Of a stretch of DNA of 64,000 nucleotides, positions 5,653 to 12,071 are shown one piece after another. The DNA comes from Marispirochaeta aestuarii (GTDB lineage: Bacteria > Spirochaetota > Spirochaetia > JC444 > Marispirochaetaceae), in the NCBI RefSeq assembly GCF_002087085.1, contig NZ_MWQY01000013.1:62001-126000 (forward strand), in the 5' to 3' direction. The position numbers and the translations under genes are program-made. The notes below the pieces were generated by a model. It ran no database searches and was not told the DNA's origin. It saw nothing but the letters and a program-made list of their open reading frames with translations. How positions within the stretch are numbered: position 1 is the stretch's first letter; each line of letters begins with the position of its first letter.

Positions 5653-6219
5653 ATGGAAGAGGAGGAAATCCTCGATCTCGTGGACGAAAATGACCGGGTA
5701 ATAGGCCAGGCCCGGCGCAGTCTTTGTCACGGGAACCCGGACTATCTGCATCGGGCGGTCCATCTGATTGTCATGAACCCGGAAAGGGAAATCTATCTCC
5801 AGCGCAGGAATCCGGATAAACAGGTCCAGCCGGATAAATGGGATACCTCCGTCGGCGGACACATTCCTTCCGGAGAAGATTATGTGGATGCCGTGTTCCG
5901 TGAAGCCGACGAGGAGCTCGGTTTACGGGATTTTGTTCCCTGTTTTATGTATCGCTACATAATGCATAATGATTTTGAGTCGGAATACGTGGGGACCTTC
6001 GTATGTGTATGCGACAGTGCATTGCGGCCCAATCCCGACGAAATTTGTGACGGACGGTTCTGGAAGGAGTCTGAGATCAGGAAATCTCTGGGCACCAGGC
6101 TATTCACTCCCAACTTTGAAGATGAATATCACCGTTTTATTCTGTGGCGCCGGAATAATCCCCGGCGTTACCGGGCCCTTTTTTCCCCGGACAGGACACA
6201 CTGCAAGGAGATAGTGTAA
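5653..6219 (+). CDS. NUDIX hydrolase (isopentenyl-diphosphate isomerase-like subgroup)
   Basis: The 188-residue protein has a complete NUDIX box: G-HIPSG-E, seven residues, then READEELGL (about residues 75-97), which binds the metal and hydrolyses nucleoside-diphosphate-linked substrates. The N-terminal pattern EEILDLVDENDRVIG and the downstream HRAVHLIVMN resemble the YfcD/isopentenyl-diphosphate isomerase branch, but the substrate cannot be told from the sequence. GGGGAAGGG lies just ahead of the ATG. It is co-directional with the DHOD-like gene and abuts the acyltransferase, so it is likely part of one operon. Confidence 0.85.
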   Translation: MEEEEILDLVDENDRVIGQARRSLCHGNPDYLHRAVHLIVMNPEREIYLQRRNPDKQVQPDKWDTSVGGHIPSGEDYVDAVFREADEELGLRDFVPCFMYRYIMHNDFESEYVGTFVCVCDSALRPNPDEICDGRFWKESEIRKSLGTRLFTPNFEDEYHRFILWRRNNPRRYRALFSPDRTHCKEIV

Positions 6220-7352
6220 TGGAGCAGGCAGATGAGTTTAAGGATATCAGGCCCTATCGGGACGACGAAATAAGGGAGGTCCTGTTACGAATAGCCAGGC
6301 ACCCCTGGATTGCCGAACTGGTACGGCGCTACCGCTTTCCCTATATCAGTAAAAGGGTGTTTCCCCTTGTCCGTCCGCTGGTCAGCTGGGGGCTCTCTTC
6401 AAAGGTGAAGCAGGTCAGATCTGTGGACCAGTTCCAGCGTGAGTTTATCGTCAAGCTGGTTCTGGACACTATCCGCAGAAAATCCACCGACGGCATCAGT
6501 GCTGACGGTCTCGATGCTCTCAACCGGGACACCTCCTATCTGTTTATCAGCAACCACCGGGACATAACCCTTGATCCCGCCTATATAAACTACTTCCTGG
6601 CCCTCCATGATCTGAATATAACCGAGATAGCTTTCGGTGATAATCTGATGATTAACGATCTGGTAGCGGACCTGATCCGAGTCAACCGATCCTTTATCGT
6701 ACACCGCGGATTGTCTCCCCGGGAGCAGCTGGCTTCATCCATCAGGCTTTCCCGCTATATCGACTCCCGTATACAGGAGGGGCAGTCAATCTGGATAGCC
6801 CAGCGGGAGGGCAGGGCCAAAGACGGGGATGACCGTACGAATCCGGCGGTCATCAAGATGCTCTACCTGGCTCACCGGAAGAGTGATGTTGACTATACGG
6901 AAATGGTCCGGCGTTATTGCATAGTACCGGTGGCGGTCTCCTACGAATTCGATCCCTGCGACCGGATGAAAGCCTGGGAGATCTACCGCAAGGAGAACAA
7001 AGGCACCCACTCCAAGGGAAAATTTGAAGACCTGGCCAGCATGTACGCCGGAATACAGGGCTACAAGGGGCGTATCCATTATCAGTACTGCGAACCTCTG
7101 ACCGGTGAGTATTCTTCGGAAAAAGAGGTGGCCGAAGCCATCGACAGGGCAATACACAGAGGCTACCGGCTCTGGCCGAATAATTATATCGGGTATGACC
7201 TTCTCCACGGCGGATCAAAGTATCTGGACAGGTACAGCCAGGAGGAGCTCGAAACCTTTAATGCCCGTTTCCGGCGCCTTCCCCCCCAGGTGCGGACAAA
7301 GGCCTGGGCCGCCTACGCAAAACCGGTTGAAAACCGGGAGGCTCTTGATTAA
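6219..7352 (+). CDS. PlsC/PlsB-type acyltransferase
   Basis: The 377-residue protein has a glycerolipid acyltransferase core. The catalytic motif reads ISNHRDITLD (about residue 110) and the substrate-binding motif REGRAKDGDDRT (about 196). The variant NHRDI-LD in place of plain NHxxxxD belongs to a bacterial subgroup of 1-acyl-glycerol-3-phosphate acyltransferase-like proteins. It probably transfers an acyl chain to a glycerophosphate acceptor at the inner leaflet of the cytoplasmic membrane. No clear membrane helix is visible, so attachment may be peripheral. It starts at the end of the NUDIX gene and is followed after two bases by the SelB-like gene. Confidence 0.82.
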   Translation: MEQADEFKDIRPYRDDEIREVLLRIARHPWIAELVRRYRFPYISKRVFPLVRPLVSWGLSSKVKQVRSVDQFQREFIVKLVLDTIRRKSTDGISADGLDALNRDTSYLFISNHRDITLDPAYINYFLALHDLNITEIAFGDNLMINDLVADLIRVNRSFIVHRGLSPREQLASSIRLSRYIDSRIQEGQSIWIAQREGRAKDGDDRTNPAVIKMLYLAHRKSDVDYTEMVRRYCIVPVAVSYEFDPCDRMKAWEIYRKENKGTHSKGKFEDLASMYAGIQGYKGRIHYQYCEPLTGEYSSEKEVAEAIDRAIHRGYRLWPNNYIGYDLLHGGSKYLDRYSQEELETFNARFRRLPPQVRTKAWAAYAKPVENREALD

Positions 7353-7354
7353 GA

Positions 7355-8452
7355 ATGATGAGAGACTCTCTTGTTCTCAAATCCCTGGAGCGTACGGGGT
7401 CCCGGCACGGCCGGGAGATAGTATTAAGCTTCACTGCTTCGATTCCCGGAGAGATGCCCGGAGAATGGATCCATCTGCCTTCGCTGAACCGGGTACGTCT
7501 GAAACCCGTAAAGGGCAGGGATGCCGACGCATCGACGGCCCGGATCAAAGGCCTGGGCAGGGACGCACTGCAGAGGGGAGATCGTTTTATCCCTCTGAAT
7601 TCCCCCGGGGTCTCTTCTAAGCGATTCTTCGGGTATCTTGACTTCCGGCCCCGTCTGCCCCTATCCGGAGAGTTTGAACGGCAGCGCGAAAAGGTCCGGT
7701 TTCGAGTCAGTGCCGCCCCGGAAAAGGGAGCGGGGATTGTCCTCCTTGAGTTTCTGCGTCCCCTGGACCTTGTGGCGGGGGAGTCTGTCAATCTCGGAGA
7801 GGGGAGATTTACCCCCCTGACTGTGCACTGTTACCGGAAAATCAGCCGGGATACCATACCCTTCAAGGCTCAGGGCTGGATGCCGAAGAGCGGAGCAGAA
7901 GTCCCCGAAGGAACCCTGAAGAGCGCCGAAACCTTTGGGGACTTTCTCTTTTTTTCTCCCTGGCTGGAATGGGTTCGGGGTGAATTGCAGGCAGAGTCCC
8001 GAAAGGAGGGGGGACTCGAAACCGGCAGAATCAGTTCTCTCCTGGGCCTTCCCCCTTACATGATTCCCGACTTATTGTCCCTCCTTGCCCGGAAGAACTG
8101 GTTTTATCCCCGGAAGGGTATTCTGCTCGATGCAGGATGGGACTATTCATCCTCACTCTCGCCCATGTCCCGGGGGATTCTGGGGCAGCTGAGGAGCGAG
8201 GGATTTTTAATGGAAAAGATCGCCGGATCTCCCCGTCACCAGGCACTGCAACTGCTGGTAAGGACCGGTCTTGCGGTGGAAATAGAAGCAGGGCTCTTTA
8301 TGGAGTCGAAGTATCAGACCGAGGTGTATCAGAAGGTTGCGGAAATCAGGTCACAGGATCCGGATACAGGTCTGTCTGAAATCGCCCGACGCACGGGACT
8401 GAAAAAACGTCTGCTTATTTCCCTGTTACAGTACGGAGATGAAAAGGAGTGA
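7355..8452 (+). CDS. SelB-like protein lacking the GTPase domain
   Basis: The 365-residue protein has no GTP-binding motif, yet it follows the order of the later parts of the selenocysteine elongation factor SelB. Residues 15-75 look like the first beta-barrel (WIHLPSLNRVRLKPV, then ARIKGLGRDALQRGDRF). Residues 85-170 look like the second barrel. Residues 195-365 look like the winged-helix array. The end, SEIARRTGLKKRLLISLLQYGDEKE, mirrors the SelB motif F+xxxGxSRKYxxxLLEYxD. The invariant RKY is changed and the chain stops at that point. The assignment is by pattern only. It could be a paralogue with another RNA-binding role. It lies two bases after the acyltransferase and overlaps the next lipoprotein gene (GTGA). 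Confidence 0.55.
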   Translation: MMRDSLVLKSLERTGSRHGREIVLSFTASIPGEMPGEWIHLPSLNRVRLKPVKGRDADASTARIKGLGRDALQRGDRFIPLNSPGVSSKRFFGYLDFRPRLPLSGEFERQREKVRFRVSAAPEKGAGIVLLEFLRPLDLVAGESVNLGEGRFTPLTVHCYRKISRDTIPFKAQGWMPKSGAEVPEGTLKSAETFGDFLFFSPWLEWVRGELQAESRKEGGLETGRISSLLGLPPYMIPDLLSLLARKNWFYPRKGILLDAGWDYSSSLSPMSRGILGQLRSEGFLMEKIAGSPRHQALQLLVRTGLAVEIEAGLFMESKYQTEVYQKVAEIRSQDPDTGLSEIARRTGLKKRLLISLLQYGDEKE

Positions 8453-9114
8453 AACAACGGCAGCTGTCTGGTCTTGTTGTGTCGGGGCTGCTTGCCCTGA
8501 TCCTGGGGGCCTGTACTGCCGCCCCGCCGCGTATAGAAGGGGTATCCTGGGAGGTCTTTCGCATCCTTTCCCCCGATTCCGGATCGGTGCGTGAAGAGCT
8601 TTCCCTGTTTATCCGGGCGGAGGATGACGACGGAAGGGCGGATCTGGAAGAGCTCTACCTGCTTCATCCGGAGAGCCGCCTCTATTGGCGCCTTTTTCCT
8701 GAAACATGGGAGGAACGTACCCGGGGAAACACAACCTGGACAGGTTCATCAGGTTTTTCGGGAGTCGAAGGGGTTCCCCGGGGGGAATATCTGCTTGTCC
8801 TTCTTGACCGTGCAGGGGAACGCACAGAGGAGAGGATATTCATCGACCTGCCGCCTTTCAGCGCTTCCGCCGCTGATGAGGAGTATCCGCGACTGGTCCG
8901 GCAGGGACCGGTCTTTCTGATTGATTCATCCGAATCCGAACCCTGTTATATTCTCGGTCAGGATACCGAAGGCAGGGTGCTGGTCTCCGCAGAAACAGTG
9001 CAGGGAAGCTTCGATCCCCGGGAATACACGCAGAACGAGGCGGGAACCAATCTTGAGTGGTATGTTTTTGTCTCCGATTCCCGCGGCTGGTATAGGGGCA
9101 GCGGTCCTTACTGA
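8449..9114 (+). CDS. putative lipoprotein of unknown function
   Basis: This 221-residue protein starts at a GTG that overlaps the previous stop. The N-terminus is a lipoprotein signal: charged start, hydrophobic run, and lipobox LGAC with the cysteine near residue 22. The mature part is acidic and beta-rich, and no family is recognised. The segment from residue 35 to 125 (VREELSLFIRAEDDDGRADLEELYLLHPES) is reminiscent of an Ig-like surface domain. It is probably anchored in the inner or outer membrane on the periplasmic side. Its end overlaps the convergent ParB-fold gene by seven bases. Confidence 0.75.
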   Translation: MKQRQLSGLVVSGLLALILGACTAAPPRIEGVSWEVFRILSPDSGSVREELSLFIRAEDDDGRADLEELYLLHPESRLYWRLFPETWEERTRGNTTWTGSSGFSGVEGVPRGEYLLVLLDRAGERTEERIFIDLPPFSASAADEEYPRLVRQGPVFLIDSSESEPCYILGQDTEGRVLVSAETVQGSFDPREYTQNEAGTNLEWYVFVSDSRGWYRGSGPY

Positions 9115-10013
9115 TTTCTCTTCCGGAGCAGGAGGTTCATGATCTTGTTGCTCCAGGAGGTACCGAAGGTTTCGGCATAGTTCCTGGCAGCCTCCTCCAT
9201 GGAGAAATCCTCACCGTACTTTTCCTTCAACTCATGCCAGTGCTTGATAATCCACATATACAGGTCCGAGGGGGTTCGTCCCGGAAAGCGCTTGTGAAGT
9301 TTGTCTCTTTTAATTACCTGAATGATAGGCCTGTAGAGGTTCCGGTACCAGGACCGGCCTGCTTCCACGAAGGGTATCTCTTCTTTCTTGTCAAGATTCA
9401 TAAAATACTTATGCCCTTGAATGTGGCGAAGCAGTTCGTAAATCCGCCCGGTCTCGGTAAAGGAGAGTTCGTGGGGACTTATTATTCTCCCCAGTTCACT
9501 TTTTGAGAAGACGTCCTGCTTTTCATAATCGATAATCGCTTTTTTGAGGTCCTGGATAGTCATCTTCGGATTGAGGCTTATCTCCGTAGTCAGACTGGTA
9601 ACCTCGGCATCGATGGCATAGACTCCCTGATGCCGGGCAACCGAAACCCGGTGATTGCCGTCTCTGACAAAATAGACTCCTCCTATCTCGTAGAGCTTGA
9701 TGGGGGGGAGGATTATATCGCTTATGTGGGCCCGGTCAATGCTCTGCCAGCGGTTTCTGACATGTTCATGCCGGGGCAGAAAGGCTTTATTGAAATCCTT
9801 GTAGCGCCCTTCGCTCCCTATTATTCTGTCCAGGGGGACCGTTTTCATTCCCTGGTAGGACTCTCCCTTGGGGTGCAGCAGGTCGCGTACGTCCTGCAGC
9901 GAGAGCAGTTCCTGTCGCTCCGGGCTAAGATAGTTGAGAATCATACCCAGGGTTGCCTTTCCCCGGGCCTTGTTGAAATCTTCCTCTGCTTTTTGGGCTA
10001 TATAGTGCTTCAC
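9108..10013 (-). CDS. ParB/sulfiredoxin-fold domain protein
   Basis: In this 301-residue protein the segment PPIKLYEIGGVYFVRDGNHRVSVARHQG (about residues 102-131) matches the ParB-N/sulfiredoxin fold, whose hallmark is the D-G-N/x-H-R nucleotide-binding turn. No helix-turn-helix is obvious, and no parA is nearby, so a role in chromosome partition is unlikely. The rest is helical and highly charged, with no recognised domain. ParB-fold proteins can bind CTP or ATP, or act as phosphotransferases or nucleases; the function here is unknown. The ATG overlaps the stop of the metallophosphoesterase gene, so the two are probably translationally coupled. Confidence 0.65.
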   Translation of the reverse strand: MKHYIAQKAEEDFNKARGKATLGMILNYLSPERQELLSLQDVRDLLHPKGESYQGMKTVPLDRIIGSEGRYKDFNKAFLPRHEHVRNRWQSIDRAHISDIILPPIKLYEIGGVYFVRDGNHRVSVARHQGVYAIDAEVTSLTTEISLNPKMTIQDLKKAIIDYEKQDVFSKSELGRIISPHELSFTETGRIYELLRHIQGHKYFMNLDKKEEIPFVEAGRSWYRNLYRPIIQVIKRDKLHKRFPGRTPSDLYMWIIKHWHELKEKYGEDFSMEEAARNYAETFGTSWSNKIMNLLLRKRNQ

Positions 10014-10681
10014 TCCAGTTCCTCGATATCCAGCAGCACGTGGTCATAGGCGTTGATCACGCGGGTTCGCTTATACATGGTCTCCCGTTGGGCATTGAGA
10101 TCGTAAAGATGAACATGCCCGTGGATAAGAAACCTGGGTTTAAATATATCCATAAAGAGCCGAAAAAACTGGAAACCCCGGTGGCAGGGATCCTCCTTGT
10201 CGTGAATATTTCTGGGAGGCGCATGGGTCAGCAGAATATCCAGGAACCTTCCGTAGCGCAGACGGTTCCAGAGAAGTCTTGGCAAAAGGCGGAGAGCGTA
10301 CAGGAACATGCCGATTTCGGTAAACTGGTTGTCCCCCCGGTTATACCGCATACTCCCCCCCAGTCCGGCGATCAGAATCCCCTTTATCTTTACCATTTTC
10401 CCTCCCACGTAGGTGGCCCCGTAGGAATGATAGTGATGAAAAGCCTCGGGATTCAGGCTGTAGACGTTGCGGAATTCGCTGCGATAGTCCTTTATTCTTT
10501 CCAGATTATGGTTTCCAAAGACAAAGCAGAGGGGAACATTCAGAGAAGAGACGATAAACCCATAGTATTCAAGATGGAGATCCCCCGCTGCCAGGACCAG
10601 GTGAACATCCGAGAAACGATCCTTGATGCTGTTTGAATAGACCAGGGGATCCACATGGTCTGCAACGCAGAGGACCTTCAT
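10010..10681 (-). CDS. calcineurin-like metallophosphoesterase
   Basis: The motifs of the superfamily are visible in order: MKVLCVADHVD at the start, AAGDLHLEYY, VFGNHN, LTHAPP and HGHVH. They supply the Asp, Asn and His ligands of a two-metal site. The usual D-x-H of motif I reads ADHVD, so that part is variant. The ATG at 10681 is chosen because it begins directly at motif I; the longer frame from 10711 would overlap the upstream gene. The substrate cannot be told (phosphodiester, nucleotide or protein). It lies ten bases after the TPR/Mrr-like gene and overlaps the ParB-fold gene. Confidence 0.82.
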   Translation of the reverse strand: MKVLCVADHVDPLVYSNSIKDRFSDVHLVLAAGDLHLEYYGFIVSSLNVPLCFVFGNHNLERIKDYRSEFRNVYSLNPEAFHHYHSYGATYVGGKMVKIKGILIAGLGGSMRYNRGDNQFTEIGMFLYALRLLPRLLWNRLRYGRFLDILLTHAPPRNIHDKEDPCHRGFQFFRLFMDIFKPRFLIHGHVHLYDLNAQRETMYKRTRVINAYDHVLLDIEELE

Positions 10682-10691
10682 ACAGGGGGCC

Positions 10692-12071
10692 TCAGCGTTT
10701 GACCGCGGCACCGGGCATCTCTATACCCTTGAGGAGCTCCTGAAGCTTGTCCTTGTCCACGAGGTCGATGGGCCGGGACTCAACAAAATCCATTGCGACC
10801 CGGGAAAAGTTGGAGCTGGATACCAGTATGCCCCGCTGTACGGAATACTTTTTCATTAATTCATGAAAATTCCTGACCGTGGATTCGGGAATCATTTCCG
10901 GAATCCGCAGAAAATGGAGCAGTCGGGGAAGTTTTCTGGTATTTCTCCAGCGGGTATCGTCATCCACGGCGATAATCTGGCAACCGTTGGGGATATCCGA
11001 AAGGTCCCGGACACGGAGTCCAAGCTGCCCGCAGGTGGCCTTGCACATCTCCTGGAACTCCTGGGATCCCGCTGTCAGGTAATCCTTGAGCCTGTCATCG
11101 GTCCGCAGGTCCTGATACTGGCTCAGTTTTTCAGCGACATCCCGGAACTGGGGTTTTTTCGAGTAGATCTTTTCCCACTGTTCCACGGCCATGTCGATTT
11201 CTCTCATCTTCTCGTAACAGAGAGCCAGAAAGTAGCGGCCGTAGATAGTCTCCATGGCCGATTCATCCCTGGACAGCTTTATCCCCCGCTCCAGTTCGGT
11301 AACCGCTTTTTCAAAGTTGTTCATGCTCATGTAGCAGCCGCCCCGTTCGATGAGGGCTTTGACCTTCATATCCGGGTCGCGCTGTGCCCTCTCAAAGGCG
11401 TGAAGGGCGGAGACATAGTCGTGATTGTCCTTCAGAAGGCGTCCGAGATAAAAATAGGCGGTATAGTTTTCGGGTTTGAATTTGATTGCAGTTTCAAGCT
11501 CGACCTTCGCTTCAACGGGCTTTTTGTTGCGATAGAGCAGATAGCCCAGCCGGTAATGGGCATTGGAGTGCCTGGGCGCGACCTCTATGGTTTTTCGGTA
11601 GAATCCGATGGCCTTATCGGACTTGTTCCGTTCCTCAAAGAGCAGGGCGGACTGGTAGTAGTAATCGGCCTCCATCGGTTCAAGGCGCATCAGGAGCAGA
11701 TACTCCTTCAAGGCCTCCTCGATCTGGCCGTAACGGGCGTAGAGCCTGGCAATACTGTTGCGAAAGTCAACCTCCGGACAGGCCCCCCCGAACTTGCCTA
11801 TCTGGTTGACGGTCTTCAGCTCCATCAGCGCCAGCTCAGGCTTGTTGTCTCCCAGATAACTCAGCCCCAGAAGGTAGTGGGCTTCACTATTTCGGGGCTC
11901 TTTTGCTATAATTTGACGCGCCATGCGTATTGCGGCTGCATACTTACCCTGCCGGTGGTATTCCACCAGAGTGGCAACCCGTTTAGGGGCGATGACGGTT
12001 TTTATGAGAAAAAAGGTAATAACCCCTATAGCTGTTCCGAAAATGATGATAAGTGCGATTATTGCCGGCAT
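10692..12071 (-). CDS. membrane-anchored TPR protein with C-terminal Mrr-like (degenerate nuclease) domain
   Basis: This 459-residue protein has one N-terminal membrane helix (residues 3-25) and then about eight TPR units to residue 315 (for example EAHYLLGLSYLGDNKPELAL, NAHYRLGYLLYRNKKPVEAK). The last 120 residues resemble the Mrr restriction-endonuclease fold. GILVSSSNFSRVAMDFVESRPIDLVDKDKLQELL matches the conserved end of Mrr domains, and FQEMCKATCGQLGLRV matches its first helix. The catalytic D...ExK/QxK residues are not evident in the intervening IIAVDDDTRWRNTRK stretch, so it is probably inactive as a nuclease. GGAG lies nine bases before the ATG. It heads the three-gene minus-strand operon with the metallophosphoesterase and ParB-fold genes. 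Confidence 0.72.
   Translation of the reverse strand: MPAIIALIIIFGTAIGVITFFLIKTVIAPKRVATLVEYHRQGKYAAAIRMARQIIAKEPRNSEAHYLLGLSYLGDNKPELALMELKTVNQIGKFGGACPEVDFRNSIARLYARYGQIEEALKEYLLLMRLEPMEADYYYQSALLFEERNKSDKAIGFYRKTIEVAPRHSNAHYRLGYLLYRNKKPVEAKVELETAIKFKPENYTAYFYLGRLLKDNHDYVSALHAFERAQRDPDMKVKALIERGGCYMSMNNFEKAVTELERGIKLSRDESAMETIYGRYFLALCYEKMREIDMAVEQWEKIYSKKPQFRDVAEKLSQYQDLRTDDRLKDYLTAGSQEFQEMCKATCGQLGLRVRDLSDIPNGCQIIAVDDDTRWRNTRKLPRLLHFLRIPEMIPESTVRNFHELMKKYSVQRGILVSSSNFSRVAMDFVESRPIDLVDKDKLQELLKGIEMPGAAVKR

Follow-up and report, generated by a model that had tools for sequence, protein, structure and literature searches.

A gene in the window, a 64,000-nucleotide stretch of the Marispirochaeta aestuarii genome (G000:C13:62001-126000, where G000 is the window's genome), almost certainly codes for a SelB homologue, which extends from inside domain II to the C terminus and lacks the GTPase (G) domain. 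We refer to the family of GTPase-less SelB-like proteins to which its product belongs as SBL. Its maintenance in spirochaetes is independent of selenocysteine (Sec). Most of the bacteria that keep SBL have stopped making Sec, so the family has probably acquired a second job, which may involve RNA binding.

The SBL frame of the window opens with an ATG and runs for 365 codons with no internal stop (Table 1), agreeing with the proposal, made earlier from the sequence alone, that the gene is intact and lies in an operon. The acyltransferase frame stops 2 bases 5′ of the SBL ATG, and the GTG start of the following gene, whose product we call a lipoprotein from its N terminus, shares bases with the SBL stop codon (GTGA at 8449). 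The protein is not quite of normal length as had been supposed: it has 365 residues against about 400 in its relatives. Its last winged helix ends after the recognition helix, and the wing is missing. A search of PHROGs with three proteins for a link to phages gave zero matches. When five proteins were searched with PADLOC for a link to defence, only the TPR/Mrr neighbour was matched, weakly, for TPR and nuclease.

Table 1 Features of the window at and around the SBL gene
Feature	Position	Strand	Basis
GTPase-less SelB-like gene (SBL), 365 aa	7355..8452	+	ORF, SelB HMM, profile alignment, orthologs
Domain II part, aa 19-88, degenerate EF-Tu domain 2	7409..7618	+	profile alignment; predicted fold of ortholog L174
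Domain III part, aa 89-156, degenerate	7619..7822	+	profile alignment; ortholog model; boundary approximate
Winged helices 1-2, aa 195-269	7937..8161	+	profile alignment, SelB HMM; boundary approximate
Winged helix 3, aa 270-322, LSP motif of family at its start	8162..8320	+	profile alignment, PDB SelB matches; boundary approximate
Winged helix 4, aa 323-365, recognition helix TGLKKRLLISLL, without wing	8321..8449	+	profile/PDB matches, joint alignment; boundary approximate
Lipoprotein gene, start codon overlapping SBL stop (GTGA)	8449..9114	+	ORF; no Pfam match
Acyltransferase gene, intact, directly 5′ of SBL	6219..7352	+	ORF, domain search
DUF4032 gene, converging, conserved neighbour	9108..10013	-	ORF, domain search
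Metallophosphoesterase gene, conserved neighbour	10010..10711	-	ORF, domain search
TPR and Mrr-like nuclease-domain gene, conserved neighbour	10692..12071	-	ORF, domain search

Searched as a single sequence, the window protein matches only HTH_IclR in Pfam (E = 0.26; 11.5 bits against a cut-off of 22), no family in NCBIfam, where it does not reach the TIGR00475 cut-off, and nothing useful in the PDB by phmmer, so such searches would miss the SelB homology. A contig scan with this lone query returned zero relatives. An HMM built from eight full-length spirochaete SelB proteins scores the window protein at 47.6 bits, in its winged-helix part, and six SBL relatives at 34 to 80 bits. Aligned with a SelB profile (13 spirochaete rows, 11 used after filtering), a profile of 31 SBLs (alignment A4) matches SelB columns 212-610 of 616 with a probability of 100% and an E value of 2.3e-43, and its top six matches among 177,635 PDB sequences are SelB chains (E = 4.8e-9, for 2ply, to 0.007). 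Individual SBLs match SelB-wing_3 (15 of 31, best 1.3e-11) and SelB-wing_2 (5 of 31) at E ≤ 1, and two of the 31 match TIGR00475 at E ≤ 0.1 (best E = 0.0058). The profile alignment, the PDB SelB matches and SelB-wing_3 all place the domain IV winged helices in SBLs. Named relatives of the gene come from a Spirochaetaceae MAG, a Spirochaeta sp. MAG and a Spirochaetales MAG.

The structural evidence is from an ortholog with 20% identity (L174, Spirochaetaceae bacterium 4572_59) and not from the window protein itself, for which AlphaFold on the lone sequence gave an unusable model (pLDDT 34.5). The AlphaFold model of the ortholog, made from a four-row alignment (pLDDT 74), predicts EF-Tu-like domains II and III, and its top two Foldseek matches are bacterial SelB (4zu9, E = 1.4e-13; 5lzb, E = 8e-12). 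In VIA-align, residues 1-162 of the model superpose on domains 2-3 of EF-Tu (best Z 10.8, with 152 residues aligned at rmsd 4.6) and residues 2-404 on residues 172-606 of SelB 5lzb (Z 10.2, rmsd 11.7, 292 aligned), where the high rmsd would fit a differing domain orientation. The profile alignment and the ortholog fold thus bear out the earlier assignment of a chain that runs from SelB domain II through domain III to the winged helices. When 31 SBLs are placed in a tree with 35 SelBs, one branch (support 99/98), recovered in 200 of 200 bootstrap trees, separates all the SBLs from the SelBs, and on present sequence evidence the family appears to have been derived from bacterial SelB once. The inner order of the SBL part is unsure because four of its rows are very long branches.

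The alignment of the SBL and SelB profiles begins inside domain II, and the domain with motifs G1-G4 is absent. Ahead of the domain II boundary the joint alignment holds 12 residues in the window row and 2-32 across the SBL rows, with the rows of G162 and G130 entered without the N-terminal extensions of their frames. To measure conservation we used columns at least 90% identical in 35 SelBs, and counted as retained those whose residue is present in at least half of the 31 SBLs. Only two of the 57 such columns in the G domain are covered by at least 15 SBLs, and none is retained. No frameshifted G domain was found 5′ of the window SBL, and none has been lost there, because the acyltransferase gene that fills this space is intact. 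A search of the window's genome found no orphan SelB G domain; the genome encodes other translational GTPases and, away from this locus, a single full SelB (310 bits). The claim of the sequence-only reading that no GTPase domain occurs in or before the gene therefore stands, and neither a want of SelB similarity nor a frameshifted GTPase domain upstream came to light when looked for.

GTPase-less SelB-like genes are present in 35 of 198 Spirochaetia genomes. These holders are the 31 represented in alignment A4 and four others (G106, G137, G150 and G192) whose loci are cut or split at contig ends or were not fetched; the count leaves out the shorter or more divergent candidates of G023, G187 and G151. 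Further SBLs occur in a 394-genome sample of the class (for example in G429, G441, G449, G445, G437 and G464). In a phylum-wide draw of 296 genomes 83 matched, and among the matches listed from outside the class the frames are at least 480 residues long except in G356 (376) and G249 (244).

The Sec trait is distributed differently. A selA match at 1e-40 is found in 34 of the 198 genomes (32 over the cut-off), and a tRNA-Sec of at least 58 bits in 33, the next genome scoring 51.6 bits; the two sets are one genome apart (G175). The Rfam tRNA-Sec cut-off of 47 is passed by 58 genomes, of which 25 score below 52 bits and have no selA match. Because they lack selA, and because 5 of 14 control genomes also exceed the cut-off, we read these 25 matches as tRNA-Ser-like. 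By these measures 34 of the 35 SBL holders have neither selA nor a convincing tRNA-Sec, and the one that has both is the window's genome, which also encodes a full SelB. The tRNA is present in 1 of 35 holders versus 32 of 163 other genomes (Fisher p = 0.012, treating genomes as independent). Two genomes of the same genus, G001 and G002, keep SBL (43% and 67% identity, respectively) and have no SelB, no selA and no convincing tRNA-Sec.

This distribution leads us to reject a role for SBL as a working part of Sec insertion, such as the adaptor for a SECIS-like element suggested earlier. The homology to the SECIS-binding domain would favour such a role, as would the genome search that the sequence-only reading had proposed, which recovered selA, selB, tRNA-Sec and a selD-like gene in the window's genome; with the Sec machinery missing from all the other holders, the two same-genus genomes included, we consider it highly improbable.

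Purifying selection acts on SBL in the window's genus. Compared with its nearest relative, in G002, the window gene has a dN/dS of 0.16 (dS 1.51), and compared with G001 one of 0.28 at a dS of 2.12, which is near saturation. The lipoprotein gene gives 0.16 and 0.27 in the same comparisons. The other six neighbour genes give 0.02-0.10 where defined, so SBL is constrained but fast. If SBL were a SelB remnant decaying after Sec loss, one could account for the missing Sec genes of 34 of 35 holders, for SBL and the lipoprotein gene being the fastest-evolving genes of the neighbourhood, and for shortened members (271 residues in G003, about 140 in some genomes of family f41). Set against this are the low dN/dS at a dS of 1.5, the frames that stay open in relatives over large divergence and across many GTDB families, all on a single side of one branch, and the overlap of the SBL stop with the start of the next gene in all seven loci examined. 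We reject decay on these grounds as very unlikely, in agreement with the earlier argument from the maintained reading frame.

The lipoprotein gene lies directly 3′ of SBL in 30 of the 35 genomes (27 from the locus survey, and G137, G150 and G192 by coordinates); the holders without it next to SBL (G057, G071, G084, G095 and G106) all belong to family f12. The lipoprotein family, which has no Pfam model, occurs in 145 of the 198 class genomes, 111 of them outside the 35 holders, and we therefore reject a tie by necessity between the two genes. In 109 genomes with a lipoprotein locus, the gene 5′ of it is SBL in 29 cases, the acyltransferase in 30 and another gene in 46, with no room for one in 4, SBL being scored where it and the acyltransferase are both near. 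Across 24 genomes co-evolution between SBL and the lipoprotein does not exceed that with a control gene of the neighbourhood (partial r of -0.04, a value reached in 1158 of 2000 permutations), in a test whose distances are near saturation. Given this absence of signal and the occurrence of the lipoprotein in 111 other genomes, the two may be mere neighbours. The family of the window lipoprotein (8449-9114) stands beside the DUF4032, metallophosphoesterase and TPR-Mrr genes.

Other SBL neighbourhoods differ. In the genomes of families f12 and f18 SBL adjoins an MTS-type methyltransferase gene, and in those of f26 it is divergent from a peptidyl-tRNA hydrolase gene, a TaqI-like adenine methylase gene separating the two in some of them. 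The gene divergent from SBL in f26 (L031:11197-13095 and L032:10547-12454, also in L040 and L042) encodes helix-turn-helix, N6-methylase and TaqI specificity domains in L031 and looks alike by eye in the other three; peptidyl-tRNA hydrolase comes next after it in L031 and, by eye, in L032.

Some SBL lineages seem, from their sequences, to shed domains other than winged helices 3 and 4. The SBL of G003 has only 271 residues. Of the SBL-like frames in the six f41 genomes covered, four have 136-158 residues (L234, L236, L127 and L235) and match through winged helices 3-4 alone, the other domains being judged missing by six-frame HMM search alone; the remaining two have 294 and 302 residues. A lipoprotein gene lies 3′ of the frame in four of the six, and the ORF immediately 5′ of the frame in L236 looks, by eye, ribosomal-protein-S21-like. 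Winged-helix-only SelB relatives of 216 residues (G075:C110, L239:2633-3280) and 154 residues with an SRRY motif (G017:C3, L245:290-751) occur away from the SBL locus in two genomes that have no selA or tRNA-Sec, with no G domain found in the surrounding 6.0 and 4.5 kb, respectively. In G023 a 972-codon frame (L247:4494-7409) carries divergent SBL domains and, continuing in the same frame, a 307-residue tail rich in R, G, N and S, with a net charge of +21. Such a composition is common among RNA-binding proteins.

SelB near-invariant columns are retained unevenly along SBL. Domain II keeps 3 of its 15 and domain III none of its 6, against 1 of 2 in winged helices 1-2, 2 of 3 in winged helix 3 and 6 of 11 in winged helix 4, which in SelB reads the SECIS. 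The recognition-helix serine of winged helix 4 is kept in 22 of 31 SBLs, and the arginine of the SelB SRKY motif, which we take to be the RNA-contacting Arg606 of Moorella SelB (the 2ply position, under an assumed numbering offset), is conserved in 25 of the 31 and replaced by K in 4. Of two wing arginines that are invariant in 35 of 35 SelBs, one persists in 12 and the other in 9 of the 31, and the net charge of winged helices 3-4 is +0.1 in SBLs versus +5.7 in SelBs of the class and +4.6 outside it. In the window protein the SRKY-like segment reported earlier reads KKR where SelB has SRK (KK for SR).

In our reading SBL lost the entire G domain and kept the two β-barrels of domains II-III and the winged-helix domain IV. 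Such a protein could not deliver tRNA through a GTP cycle; its C-terminal winged helices would be the working part, binding an RNA element such as an mRNA or rRNA hairpin, and the barrels may have turned into a scaffold. The overlapping lipoprotein gene could be a target, or simply a neighbour. A Sec-independent, SelB-derived protein that acts as an RNA binder through its winged helices is our best explanation, to which we give about an even chance. The best-kept winged helix 4, the erosion of domains towards winged helices 3-4 and the G023 tail count for it. Counting against it are a leader with no hairpin conserved across five orthologs, a search that found no RNA target, the lack of co-evolution with the lipoprotein, and the wingless, KK-for-SR form of the window protein. 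RNA binding is not secure because SBLs have mostly lost the positive net charge and the SelB-invariant arginines of the wing; of the earlier proposal of an RNA-binding protein derived from SelB, the descent stands and the RNA binding may hold. We put forward more tentatively a wider reading, in which the SECIS-reading domain outlived Sec in spirochaetes as a GTPase-free, Sec-independent RNA-hairpin-binding regulator, in the one old SBL clade and again in the short G075 and G017 proteins.

The loss of charge from the RNA face and the persistence of winged-helix-only forms would also suit a DNA-binding transcription regulator, in which the SelB winged helices have turned to reading DNA in the manner of MarR, IclR or GntR, and SBLs do match MarR_2 (9 of 31), HTH_24 (8 of 31), IclR (7 of 31) and GntR (6 of 31) at E ≤ 1. 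All of these matches are weak, however (the best, to HTH_24, at 4.1e-5), and general to winged helices, the SelB model being the commonest and strongest, and most SBLs keep barrels that a transcription factor does not obviously need. We consider such a regulator unlikely, and action on RNA would be more likely than action on DNA. An inactive mimic of a translational GTPase, engaging the ribosome or an assembly intermediate through barrels and winged helices in the way that yeast Tsr1 engages pre-40S, seems to us similarly unlikely: the predicted retention of the EF-Tu domain 2-3 fold and the translation-linked neighbours (the f12/f18 methyltransferase, the f26 hydrolase and, by eye, the f41 S21-like ORF) speak for it, but domains II and III have lost most of their SelB near-invariant residues and several f41 members seemingly have no barrels.

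SBL shares with bacterial SelB (TIGR00475; 4zu9, 5lzb, 1lva, 2ply and 1wsu) domains II, III and the winged helices in the same order, with the recognition-helix Ser and Arg of winged helix 4 mostly kept. It differs in having no G domain, in having mostly lost the domain II-III signature residues and the wing Arg, and in occurring in genomes without selA and tRNA-Sec. Its nearest parallel is the archaeal aSelBL or EF-Pyl-like family, which is described as SelB-derived, more widespread than Sec, degraded in GTPase function and of unknown role, with a degenerate G domain kept and the C-terminal SECIS domain missing (PMC3037878). SBL is the bacterial mirror image, with the G domain absent and the C-terminal domain kept. 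SBL may also be likened to Tsr1, which acts in pre-40S maturation with a dead active site (PMC4895721), as an inactive relative of translational GTPases with another job; Tsr1 differs in being eukaryotic and in keeping a GTPase-like architecture. Literature searches, mostly outside subscription journals, turned up no GTPase-less SelB family in bacteria. A conserved SelB relative that has no motor and occurs mainly in Sec-less genomes shows that pieces of the Sec machinery can be put to use again when the trait is gone, as proposed for aSelBL, with the opposite half kept, and SBL offers a small, testable protein for what the RNA-reading domain of SelB does alone. SelB is taken as a genomic signature of Sec use (PMC1794560, PMC5029168), and SBL urges caution with SelB counts based on the C-terminal domain.

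The Sec genes of the window's genome form a cluster of peroxiredoxin, tRNA-Sec, selA, selB and selD-like genes (G000:C4:186000-205000, L027). A similar cluster with the same peroxiredoxin-selA-selB neighbours is present in a genome of another class (G266:C40:24000-33000, L246). The SelBs of the two clusters are 53% identical and sisters at 100/99, and both peroxiredoxin genes have an in-frame TGA (DFTFVUATEIS), as has the selD-like gene of L027. The cluster of the window's genome was probably gained horizontally. At G197:C1:1947726-1949485 a full-length selB is apparently split into two frames (541 and 66 residues) in a genome where selA and tRNA-Sec are present.
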